Shown in pieces: positions 3,972 to 42,276 of a stretch of DNA of 47,229 nucleotides (positions are counted from its first letter, which is position 1; every line of letters starts with the position of its first letter). The DNA lies in contig JAISCI010000003.1 in the NCBI GenBank assembly GCA_031265685.1, positions 1-47,229 of the forward strand, written 5' to 3'. The notes below the pieces were generated by a model. That model saw only the letters and a list, made by a program, of their open reading frames with translations, was not told the origin of the DNA and searched no databases. Position numbers and translations under genes: made by a program. The DNA is from Clostridiales bacterium (GTDB taxonomy: Bacteria > Bacillota > Clostridia > Lachnospirales > WRAX01).

Positions 3972-3996
3972 ATACTAATCCAACGGAGATTAGTAT
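3972..3996. repeat. Minimal family B hairpin
   Basis: ATACTAATC and GATTAGTAT form perfect 9-bp arms around a 7-bp loop. The right side AACGGAGATTAGTAT is identical to the right end of the family B element at 39648-39740. It reads like an internally deleted family B copy, just ahead of the recJ ribosome binding site. Confidence 0.65.
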
Positions 3997-6315: not shown

Positions 6316-6341
6316 GAATTTGCCCTGAACCCGGCAAATTC
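6316..6341. repeat. Family A palindrome (GAATTTGCC subtype)
   Basis: GAATTTGCC and GGCAAATTC are perfect arms around CTGAACCC. It lies 8 bp after the apt stop and just ahead of the terminator. Confidence 0.9.
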
Positions 6342-7571: not shown

Positions 7572-8468
7572 ATGAGCGAATTTGCCCTGGATTTGCGCCT
7601 GAACCCGCGCGAATCCGACCCGGCAGATTCCTTGGGTGAATTTGCCTTGAACCCGGCAGATTCATTTTCCGAACATCCGATAGGCATATTCGATTCCGGC
7701 GTCGGCGGGCTGACGGTCGCGAGAGAGGTTATCGCCGCGCTGCCCGGCGAAAACATCGTGTATTTCGGCGACACGGCGCGCGTGCCTTACGGATCCAAAT
7801 CCCGCGAAACCGTCACGCGGTATTCGCGGCAGATTGTGGGCTATCTGCTGACGCGCGGCGTCAAGGCTGTTATCATCGCGTGCAACACCGCAAGCGCCCT
7901 CAGCTGCGACGCGTTGCGCGCGGAGTATTCCGTCCCGATAATCGAGATGGTCCGCCACGGCGTGTCCGGCGTAGTCCGCTCGCGGGGGATCCGCTCCGTC
8001 GGCGTAATCGGCACGGAGATGACCGTGCGCTCGGACGCTTACGGCGCGGAGCTGAGGCGGCTTCGCCCGGATATACGCGTCGAGTCGCGGGCGTGCCCGC
8101 TTTTCGTGCCGCTGGCCGAGGAGGGCTGGACGGACAACGCCGTGGCCGAGCTGACCGCGCGGGAATACTTGTCCGGCTTCGCCGAAAGCGGCGTGGACGC
8201 GCTGATACTGGGCTGCACGCATTATCCGCTGCTGGCGGGGGTAATCGGGAGGGCGGTGCCGGGCGCGGCGATTGTGAACCCCGCCGCCGCCGCCGCCGCC
8301 GAGACGCGGTCGTATCTCGCGGCGAACGGTTTGCTGAACGAGTCCGGCAAGCCCCCGTCGTATTCTTTCCACGTCTCCGACGCCACGGCGAAGTTCGGCG
8401 TGATATGCGAACGGGTGCTTGGCCGCGCTTACGAGCCGGAGGTAGTGGATCTGGATGCTAGAGGCTAG
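7572..8468 (+). CDS. murI: Glutamate racemase with repeat-encoded N-terminal extension
   Basis: MurI makes D-glutamate for peptidoglycan. The family part starts at PIGIFDSGVGGLTV. The catalytic cysteines are in IIACNTASA and ILGCTHYP, and the proton relay region is intact. The odd part is the first ~36 residues: they are translated from two family A palindromes (7578-7663), giving EFALDLRLNPRES and then EFALNPADS. No ATG lies between these repeats and the family start, so translation should begin at ATG 7572 or at an in-frame TTG inside the repeats; no strong ribosome binding site is visible. The last codons and the TAG stop come from a family D repeat (LDARG, stop at 8466-8468). Confidence 0.93.
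   Translation: MSEFALDLRLNPRESDPADSLGEFALNPADSFSEHPIGIFDSGVGGLTVAREVIAALPGENIVYFGDTARVPYGSKSRETVTRYSRQIVGYLLTRGVKAVIIACNTASALSCDALRAEYSVPIIEMVRHGVSGVVRSRGIRSVGVIGTEMTVRSDAYGAELRRLRPDIRVESRACPLFVPLAEEGWTDNAVAELTAREYLSGFAESGVDALILGCTHYPLLAGVIGRAVPGAAIVNPAAAAAAETRSYLAANGLLNESGKPPSYSFHVSDATAKFGVICERVLGRAYEPEVVDLDARG
7578..7663. repeat. Two family A palindromes inside the murI reading frame
   Basis: The first unit (7578-7630) is nested: outer arms GAATTTGCC and GGCAGATTC enclose an inner palindrome with arms GATTTGCGC and GCGCGAATC. The second unit (7638-7663) is simple: GAATTTGCC, a loop, GGCAGATTC. Both are open in the murI frame. Confidence 0.85.
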
Positions 8469-8620
8469 AAGCTGGAAAAACCTTGCCGGGGTTGCGGAAA
8501 TTGAAGTATTGGCAGCAGGCCCGCGCGCCGCTCAATACTTCACATCCAAAACCCCGGCCAGGTTTTTCCAGCTTCTTGCTTCTTGCTTCTTGTTTCTTGT
8601 CTCTAGCCTCTAGAATCTAG
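8458..8620. repeat. Family D inverted repeat between murI and mreB
   Basis: The left end CTAGAGGCTAGAAGCTGG is mirrored on the right by CCAGCTTCTTG and CTCTAGCCTCTAG. The right arm holds tandem heptamers of the CTTCTTG type. Between the arms lies a separate palindrome, GAAGTATTG and CAATACTTC. The element begins in the last codons of murI. Relatives are at 19104-19207 and, partly, at 31197-31235. Confidence 0.8.
8476..8567. terminator. Bidirectional terminator-like core of the family D element
   Basis: AAAAACC-TTGCC-GGGGTT pairs with AACCCC-GGCC-AGGTTTTT. The GC-rich stem is thus flanked by A5 on the left and T5 on the right, so it could stop transcription on either strand. The loop of about 56 nt is long for a classical terminator but holds its own stem. 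Confidence 0.5.
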
Positions 8621-13922: not shown

Positions 13923-13949
13923 GGAATTTGCCGGGTTCAGGGCAAATCC
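13923..13949. repeat. Family A palindrome before minC
   Basis: GGAATTTGCC and GGCAAATCCC form arms with one mismatch around GGGTTCAG. It lies between the mrdA stop and the minC ribosome binding site AAAGGAGA. Confidence 0.8.
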
Positions 13950-17093: not shown

Positions 17094-17243
17094 GAATTTG
17101 CTGGGTTCAGAGCAAATTCACTCAAGGAATTTGCTGGGTCGGATCCGCGCGGGTTCGGAGGTTCGCTGACAGGATTTTGCGCCGAAATTTCGGCGCAAAA
17201 TTCATCCAGGCAAACTTACCGGACGCGAGTCCAGGGCAAATTC
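17094..17243. repeat. Family A palindromes, one simple and one multiply nested
   Basis: 17094-17119 is a simple unit (GAATTTGCT, loop with GGTTCAG, AGCAAATTC). 17127-17243 is composite. The outer GAATTTGC and GCAAATTC enclose a degenerate GAAGTTTGC-type pair, which in turn encloses a perfect 28-bp palindrome at 17174-17201 whose halves are ATTTTGCGCCGAAA and TTTCGGCGCAAAAT. These repeats fill the gap between rodA and mgsA, apart from the mgsA ribosome binding site. A spurious open frame starting MIKEFAGF runs through them. Confidence 0.85.
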
Positions 17244-18896: not shown

Positions 18897-19121
18897 ATGC
18901 CGGTGCAGAGACCAAATATTTTCCAAGTGGAACCGCTCGATGATTATACGGTAAACGTCTGCTTCGACGACGGCAGAATAAAATCCTTCGACGCGAAAGA
19001 ACGTATTAAAAAAGGCGGTATATTCGCGAAGCTCGGCGACAAGGAGTTTTTCAAGGATCGCTGCGTGATCCTGAACCGCACGCTGGCATGGGACACAACG
19101 GGTCTAGATGCTAGATGCTAG
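18897..19121 (+). CDS. DUF2442 protein with repeat-truncated C terminus
   Basis: The 74-residue product contains the family core VEPLDDYTVNVCFDDGRIKSF and a second half ending LNRTLAWDT. Family members go on past the tryptophan with a short acidic tail. Here the frame enters a family D repeat right after GACACAACGGG and ends LDARC plus TAG. The stop and the last codons therefore come from the repeat. The gene follows the damaged DUF4160 gene by 18 bp with a GGAGGG ribosome site. Function is unknown. Confidence 0.75.
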   Translation: MPVQRPNIFQVEPLDDYTVNVCFDDGRIKSFDAKERIKKGGIFAKLGDKEFFKDRCVILNRTLAWDTTGLDARC

Positions 19122-19207
19122 AAGCAAGAAAAACCCCGCGAGCGGTGGCTCTTGACCTTAGGGTTTTTCTAGCTTCTTGTCTCTTGCATCTAGTCTCTAG
19201 CCCCTAG
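19104..19207. repeat. Family D element between convergent genes, terminator-like
   Basis: The left arm has the tandem heptamers CTAGATG, CTAGATG, CTAGAAG. The right arm mirrors them with CTTCTTG, CATCTAG, CTCTAG and CCCCTAG. The core pairs AAAAACCC (19129-19136) with GGGTTTTT (19161-19168) and has an inner GAGC/GCTC stem, so it can act as a terminator for both the DUF2442 gene and the convergent yhcN-like gene. TAG stops of both genes lie in its ends. Confidence 0.75.
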
Positions 19208-21109: not shown

Positions 21110-21114
21110 TAAAG

Positions 21115-21245
21115 GAATTTGCCGGGTTCAGGGCAAATTCCCTGCGAGCTTGCCGGAAAAGAATTTGCCTTGGAATTTTCGCCTGGGAAGTTTGCTTGGT
21201 TAACGCAAACTTCCGAACCGCGCGAAAATTCGGCCCGGCAAATTC
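21115..21245. repeat. Family A array with a three-level nested palindrome
   Basis: 21115-21140 is a simple GAATTTGCC/GGCAAATTC unit. 21161-21245 contains three palindromes inside one another: outer GAATTTGCC (21161-21169) with GGCAAATTC (21237-21245), middle GAATTTTCGC (21173-21182) with GCGAAAATTC (21222-21231), inner GGAAGTTTGC (21186-21195) with GCAAACTTCC (21205-21214). Each pair of arms is perfect. The array fills most of the gap before the rhomboid gene. Confidence 0.92.
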
Positions 21246-22363: not shown

Positions 22364-24716
22364 ATTTAATAAAGTAACCGCCTTGCTCGCGGCGAAGGCC
22401 GTGTCGGTCCCGGCGAAGCGCCTGGCCGCCGAACTGGTTCCTTTTGAGGACGCGGACGACGCGCGCGCCGCTCTGGCCGAGACGGCCGAGGCGGTCCGGC
22501 TGATCGAGACGAAAGGGGCGCTGCCCCTGGGCGGCGTCAGCGACGTGCGTCCCGCGCTTTCCAGGGCGGCCATAGGCGGGGCGCTCTCAATGGCCGAACT
22601 GCTCGCCGTCGCGGAATATATTTACGTCTGCCGGAAGGCGCTGGCGTACGGCCTGCCCGACGGCCGGGAAGCGTCCGCCGAGGGCGCCGTCGCGGGGCTG
22701 TTCCGGCTTGTCACGGCGGAGACTTCGCTCGAGAACGAGATACGGCGCAAGGTGAAGAGCGACGCCGAGCTGTTCGACGACGCCAGCTCCGCGCTGGCGG
22801 ACATACGCCGAGGCATAAAGCGCGCGGGCGAGAAGATCCGCGAGCAGCTTAACTCCATTATCCACTCGCGGGTTTATAAAAACGCCCTTCAGGACAGCGT
22901 CATAACGACGCGCGGAGGGCGCTACTGCGTGCCCGTCAAGAGCGAGGCGCGAGGCGCGGTCCCCGGAATGATCCACGACCAGTCCGGAAGCGGAGCGACG
23001 CTCTATGTCGAGCCGATGGCGGTAGTCGCGCTCAACAACGCGATCAAGGAGTTTGCCGCGAGGGAACGCGACGAAATAGCCCGGATACTCGCGGAGCTTT
23101 CGGATTCGGTCGCGTCGCGGGCGGAATCAATGGCGGCGTCGATGGAAGCGCTCATCACGCTTGATTTCATATTCGCGAAGGGCGCTCTGGCGCTGGACAC
23201 GCGCTCCGCGCGCCCGGAGATAAACGACGGCGGGCGCGTAAACCTGATCCGCGCGCGCCACCCGCTTATCCCAAGGGACGTCGCCGTCCCCATCGACGCG
23301 CGCGTAGGCGGGGATTTCACTACACTGCTGATAACGGGTCCCAACACGGGCGGCAAGACCGTCGCGCTCAAGACCATCGGGTTGCTGCCGCTGATGGGTT
23401 CGGCCGGGCTGTTCATACCGGCCGAGACGGGCAGCGAGGTCGCCGTCTTCGACGGGGTGTTCGCGGACATCGGCGACGAGCAGTCCATAGAACAGAGTCT
23501 TTCAACGTTCAGCGGACATATGACGAACATAACGCGCGTGCTGGGGCTGGCCGCGCCCGGCTCGCTTGTGCTGCTGGACGAGCTTTGCGCGGGGACGGAT
23601 CCGACCGAGGGCGCGGCGCTGGCCGAGTCCATAGTCGAGCGGCTGGCCGCCATCGGCGCGCGCGTCGTCGTTACGACGCATTACGCCGAGCTGAAGCTGT
23701 ACGCCCTGCGCTCCCCGTCCGCCGAGAACGCCGCCTGCGAGTTCGACGTGGCGACGCTCCGGCCCACGTACCGGCTTATGATCGGCGTGCCGGGCAAGTC
23801 CAACGCGTTCGCGATCTCGAAGCGTCTGGGCCTGCCCGAGGATATAATAGAAACGGCGCGGGGCCTTCTGACTCGTCAGGAGACGCGTTTTGAGGACATC
23901 GTGACCGACCTAGAGATAAACCGGCGCTCCGCCGAGACGGAGGCGCGGAAAGCGGAGGGTATACGGCGCGAGGCCGAGCGGCTGCGTCAGGAATACGAGA
24001 CGGCGAAGGCGAAGCTCGCTCAGTTCCGCGACAAAGAGATGGCGAAGGCCCGCTCCGAAGCCCGGGAGGCTGTCGAGCGGGCTCGGGACGAGGCGGCGGC
24101 TATCGTGAAGGAAATGCGGCGGCTCGCCGCGGAGAACGCCGCCCCGCATCTGCTCGCGGAGAAGCGGCGCGAGCTGTCCGACGCGCTGTCGTCCGCCGGG
24201 CGGACTGACGGGACGGGCGAGACGTCCGAGTGCGGCGAGCCGCTGCCGGCGGATACGCCGCCGGTTCCGGGGGATATTGTTTACGCGCGTTCGATCGGGC
24301 GGAGCGCGAGGGTCGTAACCGCGCCGGACGCGGACGGCGACTTGTACGTGGCGGCGGGCGCGATCAAAATGCGCGTCAACATCTCGAGCCTTTCGCGCGG
24401 GCGTTCCGAGTCCGAGGACGAGACTGCGGCGGGCGGCCGCGGCGGATCGTTCGCGTCGAGAAAGTCGCTGGCGATTTCCCCGGAAATAGACTTGCGCGGG
24501 CAGACCATAGCCGAGGCGATCGAGAGCGTGGACAAGTACCTGGACGACGCGGCCATGACGGGGCTGACGCGCGTCGGGCTGATACACGGCAAAGGCACCG
24601 GAGCGCTGCGAAACGCCGTAACCGAGTATTTGCGCCGGCATAAACATGTGCGGCGGTATCGGCTCGGGGAATACGGCGAAGGCGACTCGGGAGTGACGAT
24701 TGTGGAACTGAAATAG
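22332..24716 (+). CDS. mutS2: Endonuclease MutS2 (ribosome-rescue/anti-recombination ATPase)
   Basis: MutS2 lacks the mismatch-binding domain of MutS. In Firmicutes it acts on collided ribosomes and limits recombination. The 794-residue product has the core and lever, the Walker A GPNTGGKTVALKTIG, Walker B LVLLDELCAGTDPTEG, VVTTHYAELK, a coiled coil at about 500-630 rich in Glu, Arg and Ala, and a C-terminal Smr nuclease domain with EIDLRGQTIAEAIE and HGKGTGALR. I chose the ATG at 22332, with GGGTAAGG upstream, inside the end of the rhomboid gene. Its last codons form one arm of a perfect 22-bp inverted repeat. Confidence 0.95.
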   Translation: MIDAKSLTTLEFNKVTALLAAKAVSVPAKRLAAELVPFEDADDARAALAETAEAVRLIETKGALPLGGVSDVRPALSRAAIGGALSMAELLAVAEYIYVCRKALAYGLPDGREASAEGAVAGLFRLVTAETSLENEIRRKVKSDAELFDDASSALADIRRGIKRAGEKIREQLNSIIHSRVYKNALQDSVITTRGGRYCVPVKSEARGAVPGMIHDQSGSGATLYVEPMAVVALNNAIKEFAARERDEIARILAELSDSVASRAESMAASMEALITLDFIFAKGALALDTRSARPEINDGGRVNLIRARHPLIPRDVAVPIDARVGGDFTTLLITGPNTGGKTVALKTIGLLPLMGSAGLFIPAETGSEVAVFDGVFADIGDEQSIEQSLSTFSGHMTNITRVLGLAAPGSLVLLDELCAGTDPTEGAALAESIVERLAAIGARVVVTTHYAELKLYALRSPSAENAACEFDVATLRPTYRLMIGVPGKSNAFAISKRLGLPEDIIETARGLLTRQETRFEDIVTDLEINRRSAETEARKAEGIRREAERLRQEYETAKAKLAQFRDKEMAKARSEAREAVERARDEAAAIVKEMRRLAAENAAPHLLAEKRRELSDALSSAGRTDGTGETSECGEPLPADTPPVPGDIVYARSIGRSARVVTAPDADGDLYVAAGAIKMRVNISSLSRGRSESEDETAAGGRGGSFASRKSLAISPEIDLRGQTIAEAIESVDKYLDDAAMTGLTRVGLIHGKGTGALRNAVTEYLRRHKHVRRYRLGEYGEGDSGVTIVELK

Positions 24717-24744
24717 CGCTTCGCGCTATTTCAGTTCCACAATC
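24698..24744. repeat. Perfect 22-bp inverted repeat over the mutS2 stop
   Basis: The last coding bases and stop of mutS2 (24698-24719) are repeated exactly as the reverse complement at 24723-24744, with a TTC loop. The arm starts GATTGTGGAACTG and ends AATAGCGC. No T-run follows, so it is not a standard terminator, but the RNA hairpin would be very stable. Confidence 0.9.
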
Positions 24745-26848: not shown

Positions 26849-26939
26849 GAAATTTTGCGGAACCAGGCAAAATTTATCAGGGAATTTTGCGGAGTCAAGC
26901 AAAATTTATCAAGGAATTTTGCGGAGCCAGGCAAAATTC
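26849..26939. repeat. Tandem array of three family A palindromes
   Basis: Three units of GAATTTTGC, a loop of the GGAGCCAG type, and GCAAAATTY repeat with a period of about 32 bp. The small spacers ATCAGG and ATCAAG are nearly identical. All three lie in the 5' leader of the SLH gene, directly before its ribosome binding site AGGAAGGAG. Confidence 0.92.
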
Positions 26940-28734: not shown

Positions 28735-28793
28735 GAATTTTGCGTGAACCAAGCAAAATGCGTAAGGAATTTTGCGTGAACCAGGCAAAATTC
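28735..28793. repeat. Two family A units after the SLH gene
   Basis: 28735-28760 is GAATTTTGC, GTGAACCAA, GCAAAATGC; 28767-28793 is GAATTTTGC, GTGAACCAG, GCAAAATTC. The units have the same orientation of loop and a 32-bp period, as in the array before the SLH gene. Confidence 0.88.
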
Positions 28794-29911: not shown

Positions 29912-29939
29912 TTTCTGTACGCTACTTAATTTTTCCTCT

Positions 29940-30058
29940 GAATTTTGTTCTGAATTTTGCTACTGAATTTTGCGGGTTTAGGCAAAATTCACAGTTCAGG
30001 CAAAATTCATGGCTGAATTTTGCGGGTTTAGGCAAAATTCACAGTTCAGGCAAAATTC
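29940..30058. repeat. Nested and directly duplicated family A units
   Basis: Two direct copies, period 50 bp (29963 and 30013 onward), each contain the palindrome GAATTTTGC-GGGTTTAG-GCAAAATTC followed by a further right arm GCAAAATTC. Extra left arms (GAATTTTGT, GAATTTTGC) stand in front of the first copy, so that right and left arms are balanced as nested pairs. The array ends 3 bp before the ribosome site GAGGTGATC of the next gene. Confidence 0.9.
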
Positions 30059-30072
30059 ATTGAGGTGATCGT

Positions 30073-32294: not shown

Positions 32295-34676
32295 ATGATA
32301 GTACCAATGTCGTGGCTGCGCGAGTACGCGGACGCGGACGTGTCCACGCGCGATTTCGCGGAGGATATAACCATGTTCGGCCAGAAAGTGGAGGCGATTA
32401 CGAAGCCCGGCGAACGGATCGACCGCATCGTCGTCGGGCGCGTCGCCGGGATAACCAAGCACGCGGGCGCGGACAAACTGCTTGTCACTAAGATTGACAC
32501 AGGCGGCAGGATGATACAGGTAGTGACCGGCGCGCGGAACCTCTCGGTCGGCGATTTCGTGCCCGTGGCGCTGGACGGCGCGACGCTGGCGAACGGGGTC
32601 ACGATCAAATCCGGGGAGCTGCGCGGGGAACTGTCGGAAGGTATGCTGTGCTCGATAGAGGAGCTGGGTTACACCCGGCATGATTATCCTGAAGCGCCCG
32701 AAAACGGGATATACGTATTCTCGGAGCCGCGGGAACCGGGAGCGGACGTCCGACCGATCCTCGAGCTTACCGACGAGGTGGTCGAATATGAGATTACAAG
32801 CAACCGCGCCGATTGTTTCTCGGTCGTCGGCATAGCGCGGGAGGTCGCCGCGATGTACGGAGGGCCGCTCCGCTTCCCGGACTGCTCGCCGGAGGAGCTG
32901 GGCGGCGGACGGGCGGCGGATCATATCGCCGTGCGGATCGACGCGCCGGAGCTTTGCCCAAGGTACGCCGCGCGGGTGATCAGGAACGCGCGGATAGGCG
33001 TCTCTCCGCAATGGCTGCGTCACAGGCTGACCGCCGCCGGGGTGCGGCCGATCAACTCGATTGTCGATATAACCAACTATGTGATGCTGGAGCTTGGGCA
33101 GCCTATGCACGCGTTTGATATTGACGAAATAGCCGGGCGGCGGATTATCGTCCGGAACGCGCGGGACGGCGAGACGTTCGTGACGCTGGATGGCCAGAGG
33201 CGCGAACTGGACGCGTCCATGCTCGTTATCGCCGATCCGGAGAAAGCCATCGCGATAGCGGGGATCATGGGCGGCGAGAACTCCAAAGTGACGGAGGGCG
33301 CCTCGGCGATACTGTTCGAGAGCGCGGCGTTCTCCGGACCGAATATACGGCGCTCGAGCAAGAAGCTGGGCCTTAGGACGGACGCCTCAAGCCGGTACGA
33401 GAAGGGGCTGGATCCGAACCTGGCGCTCGTCGCCGTCAACCGCGCCGCGCGGCTTGTCGAGCTGCTCGGCGTCGGCGAAGTCGTTCCGGGGGTCGTCGAT
33501 TGCTATCCGGGCGTGGTTTCGGACCGTGATGTGGCCTACACCGCCGACGGCGTCAACCGTCTGCTCGGCACGGATATATCGGGGGATGCGATGGCGTCTA
33601 TGCTGCGCCGGCTGGGGCTGTCGCCGTATCCGGGCGGCGTCTCGGCGCCCAGTTTCCGGCGGGATATAACGCGCGAAGCCGACGTAGCTGAGGAGATCGC
33701 GCGGGTATACGGCTATGACAATATCCCGGCGACGCTGGCTTCCGGCACTCCGACCGTCGGCAGGAAGAACCGCGAGCAGCTGCTGGAGGACAGACTGAAA
33801 GCCGCGATGGCCGCGAGCGGGTACTCCGAGGCGCTGACATACGCGTTTGAGAGTCCGAAAGCGTTCGACCGGCTGCTTCTGCCGGAGGATTCCGAGCTGC
33901 GGCGCGCGGCTCGGCTGGTCAATCCGCTGGGCGAGGATTTCAGCGTAATGCGCACGTCGATGGCGAACGCTATCCTTACGGCGCTGGCGGCGAATTACAG
34001 CAAGCGGAACGAATCCGCGGCGCTGTACGAGATAACGAAGGTATACAGGCCGTCGGCGCTGCCGCTTCAGGATCTGCCGGACGAGCCGAAGGTTCTCGCG
34101 TTCGGAATATATGGCGGGGCGGATTTCTATGATATTAAAGGCGCGGCGGAGGCGGCTGCCGCGTCCGCCGGGGCGGAGGCCGATTTCGAGCGGACGGCGG
34201 ATGTGCCGTTCCTGCATCCGGGGCGCGCGGCATACGTCTCTGTCGGCGGGGAACGCGCCGGGTATATCGGAGAGGTTCACCCGGACGTGCTGGCGGCATA
34301 CGGCATCGGCGAGCGAGCATATGTCGCGGAACTGTTCGTCGCGCCGATTTACGCGAACGCGATCGACAGGCCGGCGTACAAACCGTTGGGGCGGTTCCCG
34401 GCGGCGCGTCGGGACGTAGCTCTGATCGTGCCGGAAGGCGTTCCCGCCAAAGCCGTGGAGCGGGCGATACTCGCGTCGGCGGGGGCGTATATCGAGAGCG
34501 CGAAGCTGTTCGACGTGTACCGCGGCGCCGGCGTCGCGGACGGGCGCAAGTCGCTGGCGTACAGTTTGTCGTTCCGGTCGCCGGACCGGACGCTGACGGA
34601 CGCGCAGGCGGACGAGGGCGTTAAGTCGGCGCTGGTTCGTCTGGCGGACGAGTTTGACGCGCGTCCGCGTGTATGA
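32295..34676 (+). CDS. pheT: Phenylalanyl-tRNA synthetase beta subunit
   Basis: PheT carries the tRNA-binding and editing parts of the synthetase. The 793-residue protein has the N-terminal tRNA-binding domain (VVGRVAGITKHAGADKLLVT), B3/B4 editing domain with INSIVDITNYVMLELGQPMH, B5, the catalytic-like core with ARVYGYDNIPATL, and the C-terminal FDX-ACB anticodon-binding domain (RFPAARRDVALIV). Length is typical. AGGAGG lies upstream of the ATG. Its TGA stop overlaps an ATG (34673) that opens a frame through family A repeats into the V-ATPase operon. Confidence 0.97.
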   Translation: MIVPMSWLREYADADVSTRDFAEDITMFGQKVEAITKPGERIDRIVVGRVAGITKHAGADKLLVTKIDTGGRMIQVVTGARNLSVGDFVPVALDGATLANGVTIKSGELRGELSEGMLCSIEELGYTRHDYPEAPENGIYVFSEPREPGADVRPILELTDEVVEYEITSNRADCFSVVGIAREVAAMYGGPLRFPDCSPEELGGGRAADHIAVRIDAPELCPRYAARVIRNARIGVSPQWLRHRLTAAGVRPINSIVDITNYVMLELGQPMHAFDIDEIAGRRIIVRNARDGETFVTLDGQRRELDASMLVIADPEKAIAIAGIMGGENSKVTEGASAILFESAAFSGPNIRRSSKKLGLRTDASSRYEKGLDPNLALVAVNRAARLVELLGVGEVVPGVVDCYPGVVSDRDVAYTADGVNRLLGTDISGDAMASMLRRLGLSPYPGGVSAPSFRRDITREADVAEEIARVYGYDNIPATLASGTPTVGRKNREQLLEDRLKAAMAASGYSEALTYAFESPKAFDRLLLPEDSELRRAARLVNPLGEDFSVMRTSMANAILTALAANYSKRNESAALYEITKVYRPSALPLQDLPDEPKVLAFGIYGGADFYDIKGAAEAAAASAGAEADFERTADVPFLHPGRAAYVSVGGERAGYIGEVHPDVLAAYGIGERAYVAELFVAPIYANAIDRPAYKPLGRFPAARRDVALIVPEGVPAKAVERAILASAGAYIESAKLFDVYRGAGVADGRKSLAYSLSFRSPDRTLTDAQADEGVKSALVRLADEFDARPRV

Positions 34677-34852
34677 AGTTTGCGGCACCAGAATTTTGCG
34701 TGACAGAATTTTGCTCGATTCACGCAAAATTCATCCAAGCAAAATTCTCCAGGCAAACTTCTATGAAGTTTGCGGTACCAGAATTTTGCGTGACAGAATT
34801 TTGCTCGATTCACACAAAATTCATCCACGCAAAATTCATCCAGGCAAACTTC
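34675..34852. repeat. Duplicated three-level nested family A palindrome
   Basis: Two direct copies (34675-34761 and 34765-34852, period 90) each hold three palindromes inside one another: outer GAAGTTTGC/GCAAACTTC, middle GAATTTTGC/GCAAAATTC, inner GAATTTTGC-TCGATTCAC-GCAAAATTC. They differ at only a few positions (GGCACC vs GGTACC, CACGC vs CACAC, ATTCTCC vs ATTCATCC). The array starts inside the pheT stop codon and ends before the subunit G ribosome site. Confidence 0.93.
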
Positions 34853-39081: not shown

Positions 39082-39648
39082 TTGAACGTTGACGAGAAGA
39101 TAAAGCAATTCTCCGACGTTGTGATCCGCGAGGCTACGCTGCACCGCGACGAAACGCTGAAGGCCGCCGCGGAGGAATTCGAGCGGCGGCGCGACGAATA
39201 CGCGCGGACGGCGAAACGCAAGTATGACCGGTGGCTCGAGGAGGAACGCGCCCGGATAACGCGGGAGCAGCGTCGCAGGGTCGTCGCGGCGCGGTCGGAC
39301 ATGAAGAGGGCGCTTATCGCGAAGCGGAACGAGCAGGTCGAGGCTGTGTTCGCGGACGCGCTGGAGCTGATCCGGCGCTTCACGGGGACGGACGAATACG
39401 CCGACAAGCTGGTCGAGCATATCCGCGCGGCTCGGCCCGAGGGGTACGCGGCGGCGGCGTACTTGGCGTCCGGCGATATGAGGCATAAGGCGCGGATTGA
39501 GCGCGAGACGGGCGTTAAGGCCGAGCGCTCCGACGAGGATTTGATCGGCGGGTTTAAGATACGCGTCAGCGCCAGCCGGGTGATTGACCGGAGTTTCCGT
39601 ACCGCGCTTGAGGAACGGAAGATCGGGTTTAACAGGATAAAGATTTAA
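39082..39648 (+). CDS. ntpE: V-type ATP synthase subunit E
   Basis: Subunit E is the second part of the peripheral stalk. The 188-residue protein has a long helical N-terminal half (ATLHRDETLKAAAEEFERRR, then RAALIAKRNEQ-like sequence) and a globular end with DEDLIGGFKIRVSASRVIDR, the usual C-terminal motif. It begins with TTG at 39082. The family B element begins in its stop codon. Confidence 0.9.
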   Translation: MNVDEKIKQFSDVVIREATLHRDETLKAAAEEFERRRDEYARTAKRKYDRWLEEERARITREQRRRVVAARSDMKRALIAKRNEQVEAVFADALELIRRFTGTDEYADKLVEHIRAARPEGYAAAAYLASGDMRHKARIERETGVKAERSDEDLIGGFKIRVSASRVIDRSFRTALEERKIGFNRIKI

Positions 39649-39740
39649 TACTAATCTCCATTCAAGGAATAGAAAAGATTTTTCAGGTCCGCGCTTCCGC
39701 TTTGAAAAATCTTTTCTATCAATCTAACGGAGATTAGTAT
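39648..39740. repeat. Family B element between subunits E and A
   Basis: The left end ATACTAATCTCCATT is complementary to the right end AACGGAGATTAGTAT, with one mismatch. An inner palindrome pairs ATAGAAAAGATTTTTCA with GAAAAATCTTTTCTAT. It begins in the subunit E stop and ends 29 bp before subunit A. It has no family A insert. Confidence 0.9.
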
Positions 39741-41539: not shown

Positions 41540-41541
41540 AT

Positions 41542-41589
41542 GATTCGCGCCTGATTCGCGCGGCTTCAGGCGCGAATCAAACGCGAATC
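41542..41589. repeat. Nested palindrome, GATTCGCG subtype
   Basis: Outer arms GATTCGCG and CGCGAATC enclose an inner palindrome GATTCGCGC-GGCTTCAG-GCGCGAATC (41553-41578). The layout is that of family A with a different arm sequence. It lies between subunit A and the channel gene. Confidence 0.8.
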
Positions 41590-41618
41590 AAACGCTGATA
41601 ACGAAGGAGCTGTTATTT

Positions 41619-42136: not shown

Positions 42137-42276
42137 ATACTAATTCCATTCTAAAGGATGCCGAATATTTTGTCGGTCCGCGCCTGAGAAGTTTGCTTGG
42201 TTCACGCAAACTTCAGACCCGCGCGGACGCGCAAGCTCGAAAAGATATTCGCCGCAAATCTAAATGGAATTAGTGT
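42137..42276. repeat. Family B element with nested family A unit, before subunit B
   Basis: Ends ATACTAATTCCATT and AATGGAATTAGTGT are inverted copies with one mismatch. GCCGAATATTTTGTCGG pairs partly with CGAAAAGATATTCGCCGC. A family A palindrome (GAAGTTTGC, TTGGTTCAC, GCAAACTTC, 42188-42214) sits in its centre. It has clear sequence similarity to 38185-38312, including GGTCCGCGCCTG and GCGCAAGCTCGAAAA-type segments. Confidence 0.9.

Follow-up and report, generated by a model that had tools for sequence, protein, structure and literature searches.

How tiny palindromic repeats without a gene of their own move is a long-standing question for REP sequences, for RPEs and for the palindromes of organelle DNA. 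REPs, with their GTAG and CGTC families, and REPINs are 20–40 nt palindromes that reach high copy numbers with or without a RAYT, some of them lying in genes (PMC3733652, PMC3116915, PMC8266576). In a few bacterial families the REP sits within another palindrome, and no dedicated transposase is known for the CGTC REPs (PMC3733652). RPEs are palindromic repeats of 100–150 bp in Rickettsia and Wolbachia that sit in coding genes and leave the frame intact (PMC3767692). The mitochondrial and plastid DNA of Volvox carteri is reported to contain short hairpin repeats (11–77/79 nt, TAAA/TTTA loops, non-coding sites only) that are inserted within one another to give larger composites, some of them at several locations (PMC2670323).

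Here we describe palindromic mobile repeats of an unusually orderly type, whose mechanism is unresolved, in the genome of an uncultured Clostridiales bacterium (assembly GCA_031265685.1). The closest parallels of the nested units are the REP and RPE repeats and, in organelle DNA, the nested palindromes of Volvox; what is new here is the repeated nesting, its exact centre, its depth and the occurrence of all intermediate states within one genome. The window, meaning the whole stretch of DNA that was analysed, comprises 47,229 nucleotides of contig JAISCI010000003.1. The genome with this window contig (C8) amounts to 2.22 Mb in 130 contigs and is 91% complete. Stretches totalling about 0.63 Mb of the 2.2 Mb were sampled (630,796 bases in the unit count) and 673 kb served for unit and nest counts; the densities of units and nests are biased upwards because the stretches were picked partly around matches. 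The collection holds no second genome of the genus, so that no strain or species comparison within the genus could be made, and the first-ranked matches of its YchF protein have 59–66% identity and come mostly from Clostridia.

The unit consists of a 9-nt arm, a loop and the matching arm, forming a palindrome of 26–27 nt, or 29–31 nt including flanking bases. Its arms are GAATTTTGC, GAAGTTTGC, GAATTTGCC, GAATTTCGC, GATTCGCGC and relatives, its loop is GTGAACCAA or CTGAACCC on either strand, and the 9-nt loop is itself near-palindromic (KTGR-N-YCAM). Among hairpins whose arms measure 8 nt or more, only those with loop lengths of 8 and 9 are in strong excess (67 vs 10 in the shuffle for length 8, 69 vs 8 for length 9). 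Our unit finder returned 229 units in the 630,796-base sample versus 0–2 in three second-order Markov shuffles, and the 673 kb contain 245 simple units and 143 nest events. Many copies of two larger inverted-repeat elements, E1 (~136 bp) and E2 (~140 bp), are also present. A pattern search for the commonest arm type, GAAKTTTGCN{8,9}GCAAAMTTC, gave 227 perfect copies in the genome and not one in 15 family genomes or 294 other genomes from its order. In 325 kb from five family relatives there was only one nested hairpin, and no hairpin had a TGAACC-type loop. Pattern scans of viral contigs found 1 and 5 contigs with a single match each, near the chance expectation for tens of gigabases, and a comparison of E1 with phage records gave no match. 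The repeats of the window are as follows (forward-strand coordinates).

2290–2315, simple unit, GAATTTGCC(GTGGAGCC)GGCAAATTC
3972–3996, minimal E2 palindrome of 25 bp, ATACTAATC(CAACGGA)GATTAGTAT
6316–6341, simple unit, GAATTTGCC(CTGAACCC)GGCAAATTC
7578–7630, two-level nest, GAATTTGCC CTG(GATTTGCGC CTGAACCC GCGCGAATC)CGACCC GGCAGATTC, in frame and upstream of a glutamate racemase domain
7638–7663, simple unit, GAATTTGCC(TTGAACCC)GGCAGATTC, in the same reading frame as the 7578–7630 nest
13924–13949, simple unit of the GAATTTGCC type
17094–17119, simple unit, GAATTTGCT(GGGTTCAG)AGCAAATTC
17127–17243, four-level version of the 21161 nest, GAATTTGC > GATCCGCGC > GAGGTTCGC..GCAAACTTA > GATTTTGC..GCAAAATTC palindrome
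21114–21141, simple unit beside the 21161 nest, GGAATTTGCC(GGGTTCAG)GGCAAATTCC
21161–21245, three-level nest, GAATTTGCC / GAATTTTCGC / GGAAGTTTGC, innermost loop TTGGTTAAC
26850–26939, three tandem units with a period of 32 (26850–26875, 26882–26907, 26914–26939)
28735–28793, two tandem GAATTTTGC(GTGAACCAR) units, the first with an imperfect arm
29939–30059, nested GAATTTTGC units, a nest of at least two levels and a partial nest side by side
34675–34761, three-level nest, GAAGTTTGC > GAATTTTGC > GAATTTTGC
34765–34852, second three-level nest, a near-identical direct tandem duplicate of 34675–34761
39648–39740, E2 element of 93 bp, probably derived by deletion, with the core and the arm of the inner stem missing
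41541–41590, two-level nest with GATTCGCG arms
42137–42276, E2 element of 140 bp with four levels, ATACTAATTCC > CCGAATATTTT > GTCCGCGC > GAAGTTTGC core

The first-pass annotation of this DNA had described three perfect inverted repeats lying one inside the other at 21161–21245, which proved exact to the base: the arm pairs 21161–21169/21237–21245 (GAATTTGCC), 21173–21182/21222–21231 (GAATTTTCGC) and 21186–21195/21205–21214 (GGAAGTTTGC) are all perfect and correctly nested. We also recovered the nesting that it had reported at five further places (by our coordinates 7578–7630, 17127–17243, 29939–30059, 34675–34852 and 41541–41590). Read by eye, the middle stems of 17127–17243 are imperfect, and an additional GATTTTGC..GCAAAATTC palindrome occupies the position of the open loop in 21161. 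The depth of up to three levels given by that annotation was an understatement, with four levels at 17127–17243 and seven in the deepest nest of the genome (L123:18211–18445). Within the window, the gene-linked family forms a size series of 26 bp (6316), 53 bp (7578), 85 bp (21161) and 117 bp (17127).

The nests obey a constant grammar. The 143 nest events comprise 43 combinations of outer and inner arms, and the conserved 8–9 nt loop of the outer palindrome is split into halves by the inner one. Most events fall into three layouts. In 60 events the outer loop is laid out as 6+6 nt, with the canonical halves NTGR...YCAN kept in 54 (for example GTGA-CA[unit]GT-CCAA); another 40 have a 10+3 or 3+10 layout with constant CGAA/GAT-type flanks, the inner unit of the 10+3 form being of the GCATTATCGC type (GTGAAT-CGAA[unit]GAT), and 17 events, with outer loops of 8 nt, are 4+6 or 6+4. 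These layouts place the inner palindrome at the outer one's dyad centre. In a sample of 351 kb, 43 of the 91 core hairpins are enclosed by an outer complementary stem, versus 79/910 after left and right flanks were swapped between units. Part of the uniformity of the flanks could come from a small number of founding nests that were copied.

The same host loop can be found empty, filled and multiply filled. E2, with ends ATACTAATYCC, exists as a 113 bp form with an open third-level loop (GTTCGCGC GGCTTTAA GCGCGAAC), as 137–142 bp forms with one 27-mer within that loop, and as 173 and 184 bp forms with further units inside the loop of the 27-mer; the whole ladder of 113, 137–142, 173, 184 and 235 bp corresponds to three to seven levels. 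The empty copy at L123:11076 (113 bp, loop GGCTTTAA) and the filled copy at L117:12568 (142 bp, GGCTCT[27-mer]CTTG) are identical at 106/112 positions outside an insert of 29–30 nt, and L126:14268 (137 bp) matches L144:19544 (184 bp) at 129/137. In E1, with ends ACTGTTTCAG, the core loop is open in about 12 copies of 136 bp and carries a unit at exactly that place in four; at a second E1 site an open hairpin in L167 (loop GTGGACCAT) faces GTGACA[two-level block]GTCCAT in L152 (153/171 identical). As one and the same host loop has different fillings in different copies, insertion must have occurred several times independently. The stepwise insertion of short palindromes into loops that the first-pass annotation had inferred is thus supported by empty and filled paralogs at 94–95% identity. 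The direction of change is read from paralogs without an outgroup, and the tree of E2 outer arms is unresolved, with too little signal for rooting the order in which units were gained. Recent activity of the nesting process is plausible from the high identity of the paralogs, but not proven, for want of a second strain or species from this genus. Apart from these series, E2 ends surround quite different interiors at L146:3356–3520 and L181:273–339, including an unrelated palindrome (CCATTCGATACATCGAATGG).

Nests also lie inside genes for conserved proteins. An in-frame three-level nest in aroB (L112:2452–2537) is 84% identical to the nest at 21161–21245, miaB holds two in-frame two-level nests, the second incomplete, and dacF holds one in-frame two-level nest. 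In alignments with 12–13 family relatives, the extra residues fall exactly at the nests (+24 aa in AroB, about +30 aa in MiaB, +20 aa in DacF), and every readable relative is empty at these sites. The comparison of filled and empty sites in relatives, which had been suggested for the nested blocks, hence places the aroB, miaB and dacF blocks opposite empty sites, and conserved single blocks in relatives, the finding that would have spoken against stepwise insertion, were not encountered. Judged from these alignments, the insertions postdate the split from the compared relatives and the reading frames stayed open. Two tandem simple units in der are absent from B. subtilis EngA. A strict codon-composition test, which is inexact and misses miaB, classed 20 of 200 regions as coding. 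The nests in aroB, miaB, dacF and der present selfish DNA as a source of new protein segments of 20–30 residues. At L112:1841–4150, AroB and AroA form a single frame of 769 codons, and at L126:12664–14274 HisA and HisI/HisE share one frame, joined via a run of hairpin arms (ILPEPAKFRPEPAKFWPESAKF); a hairpin repeat may have fused the latter genes.

The reading that we favour, and consider probable without regarding it as settled, is that the units are non-autonomous mobile palindromes of 26–27 nt that insert preferentially at the dyad centre, the hairpin apex, of members of their own family. The central position, the split loop halves, the level-wise pairing of arms, the empty and filled paralogs and the empty gene sites in relatives are observed; the steps of the process are inferred. 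Each inserted copy would bring a fresh apex as a target for the next, and nests would grow inwards, their levels recording the order of insertion like tree rings. The target of the insertion step may be DNA folded as a hairpin, in single-stranded or cruciform form, and the step would probably take place during replication. It would need a trans-acting activity, for which no enzyme has been identified, to nick the apex or join DNA there. Composite nests (~136 bp E1, ~140 bp E2) would also disperse as whole blocks, and nests may later be edited by slippage deletion, one-sided tandem duplication and inversion of the loop. Since empty, filled and multiply filled states of the same loop coexist in one genome, what inserts, where and with which junction can be read from sequence and tested. 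A clear target-site duplication was not read; instead of being duplicated, the base at the centre of the loop is usually replaced.

The first-pass annotation had named REP elements moved by RAYT transposases as the nearest known parallel and proposed a search for a linked HUH (Y1) transposase. REPs remain a parallel, as the units are 26–27 nt long with 227 perfect copies of one arm class, but the core units nest in themselves to seven levels and lack a GTAG or CGTC tag: within 6 nt of the foot of 195 core units, GTAG occurs once (1.8 expected) and CGTC twice (10.8 expected). Because they failed this test, we do not file the core units as REPs. No Y1_Tnp domain (PF01797; RAYT/TnpA-REP) was detected in the 91% complete assembly, in a search whose positive controls matched, and OrfB_IS605 (TnpB) was likewise absent, although the assembly may lack 9% of the genome. 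The only such find was one ORF for a truncated group II intron RT; the sampled ORFs of 180 codons or more include no multicopy transposase, and the proteins near dense repeat clusters are ordinary (amidase, aminotransferase, FtsX, phospholipase D, DUF3801). The outer element of E2 is closer to the CGTC REPs, with CGTC at one foot in 8 of 20 copies (about 0.4 expected from base frequency), a stem that begins with AT and often a CA tail; this CGTC may be either a tag or the mark of a preferred target. E2 copies with CGTC at one foot often have CA or TA at the other (window 39648–39740 and 42137–42276; L117, L130, L144, L146, L152 and L181).

E1 and E2 resemble MITEs in size (~136–142 bp), inverted ends and copy number. 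Inspection by eye revealed no direct repeats beside the 23 E1 and 20 E2 copies. Pairs of E1/E2 ends 0.6–30 kb apart in the sample look like chance 10-mer matches, and no autonomous partner was found among the sampled stretches. With RPEs the repeats share in-frame insertion into otherwise conserved proteins (aroB, miaB, dacF and der here), but they form nests of 26–117 bp in a Clostridia-like genome, and the part of the RPE source at hand describes no nesting grammar (PMC3767692). Palindromes within palindromes are common to the Volvox repeats and to ours, with 143 nest events and empty/filled pairs here; the portion of the Volvox report at hand describes no constant grammar or empty/filled series (PMC2670323). 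Our repeats differ in lying on a bacterial chromosome, in their 8–9 nt GTGAACCAA/CTGAACCC-type loops, in centre-exact nesting and in their in-frame gene copies. A bolder proposal, which we put forward only tentatively and do not expect to hold in full, is a self-targeting hairpin system whose own apex is the preferred site, giving endless centre-exact nests, driven by an activity that is neither Y1/HUH nor a known MITE transposase, and serving as a source of in-frame peptides in essential proteins.

The main rival dispenses with a dedicated mobile activity: forks stall at hairpins, template switching or short-patch gene conversion copies inner blocks between palindromes, and a few founding nests then spread by recombination. 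Arms and loop halves are indeed common to the family members, the same composite nests turn up as blocks in several places (for example GCATTATCGT TTGAAC(GAATTTTGC CTAAACCC..)CATCAA at L123, L125 and L126), and ATC or GAA precedes 122 of 144 GCAT-type arms, which places these arms nearly always in the same kind of host. Loop orientation is flipped among otherwise similar E1 copies, arms remain matched as sequences diverge, as quasipalindrome correction would predict, and no transposase was found. Left unexplained are how unlike arms first entered a loop, dispersal to unique sites (aroB, miaB, dacF) and the gain of single 27-mers in an otherwise near-identical element, and a shared homology of 8–9 nt is short for recombination. 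On balance we think this account unlikely as the whole explanation, but for much of the spread it cannot be ruled out on present data. The innermost E1 loop occurs in either orientation (GTGAACCAA or TTGGTTCAC) within one and the same E1 frame, as though the centre flipped between its inverted arms, in copies that include L120:16627–16762, L161:1501–1636 and L113:9993–10128.

Should deep nests instead be ancestral, shallow ones would derive from loss of the hairpin interior. Such losses are probably represented by the 87 bp form of E1 and the 93 bp form of E2, which we read as deletions because each keeps one GCGCGAAC arm, as in slippage between GCGC repeats; for the same reason these forms were rejected as ancestral empty states. 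As a general account, the deletion ladder is improbable: the open loops of shallow forms are the canonical 8–9 nt loops that unrelated simple units also have, the deeper forms differ in the filling of the same host loop, and the coding sites are empty in every comparable relative.

Unequal arrays, such as L144:19544 with three copies of GAATTTTGC on the left and two on the right, and hisA with its 21-bp tandem arms, indicate that 15-nt repeats could also have been duplicated in tandem on each arm independently, to give apparent nests. Where exact arms flank a unit on both sides, they are the same arm in 64 of 81 cases versus 9.8 expected under random re-pairing, and only 20 of 56 like-type nests share an arm across levels, which together rule out independent tandem growth as the main cause. 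Tandem duplication is a secondary process that is not needed as the main explanation, a role in which we give it very little credence. That selection maintains the nested stems because the repeats are fixed structural units (such as regulatory RNAs, terminators or binding sites) is hardly credible in spite of arms matched at every level and good folding energies (z = -5.4 versus dinucleotide shuffles for the 21161–21245 block), as an Rfam search of the window gave no match, relatives lack the repeats, depth varies at one site and units lie in frame within enzymes.

Two further features of the window were noted. A second palindrome family (CTAGATGCTAGAAGC...AGAAAAACC) at 8454–8589 and 19104–19193 has no sequence in common with the studied units, and a perfect 22-nt inverted repeat with a 3-nt loop, possibly a terminator, lies at 24698–24744 next to the end of mutS2.
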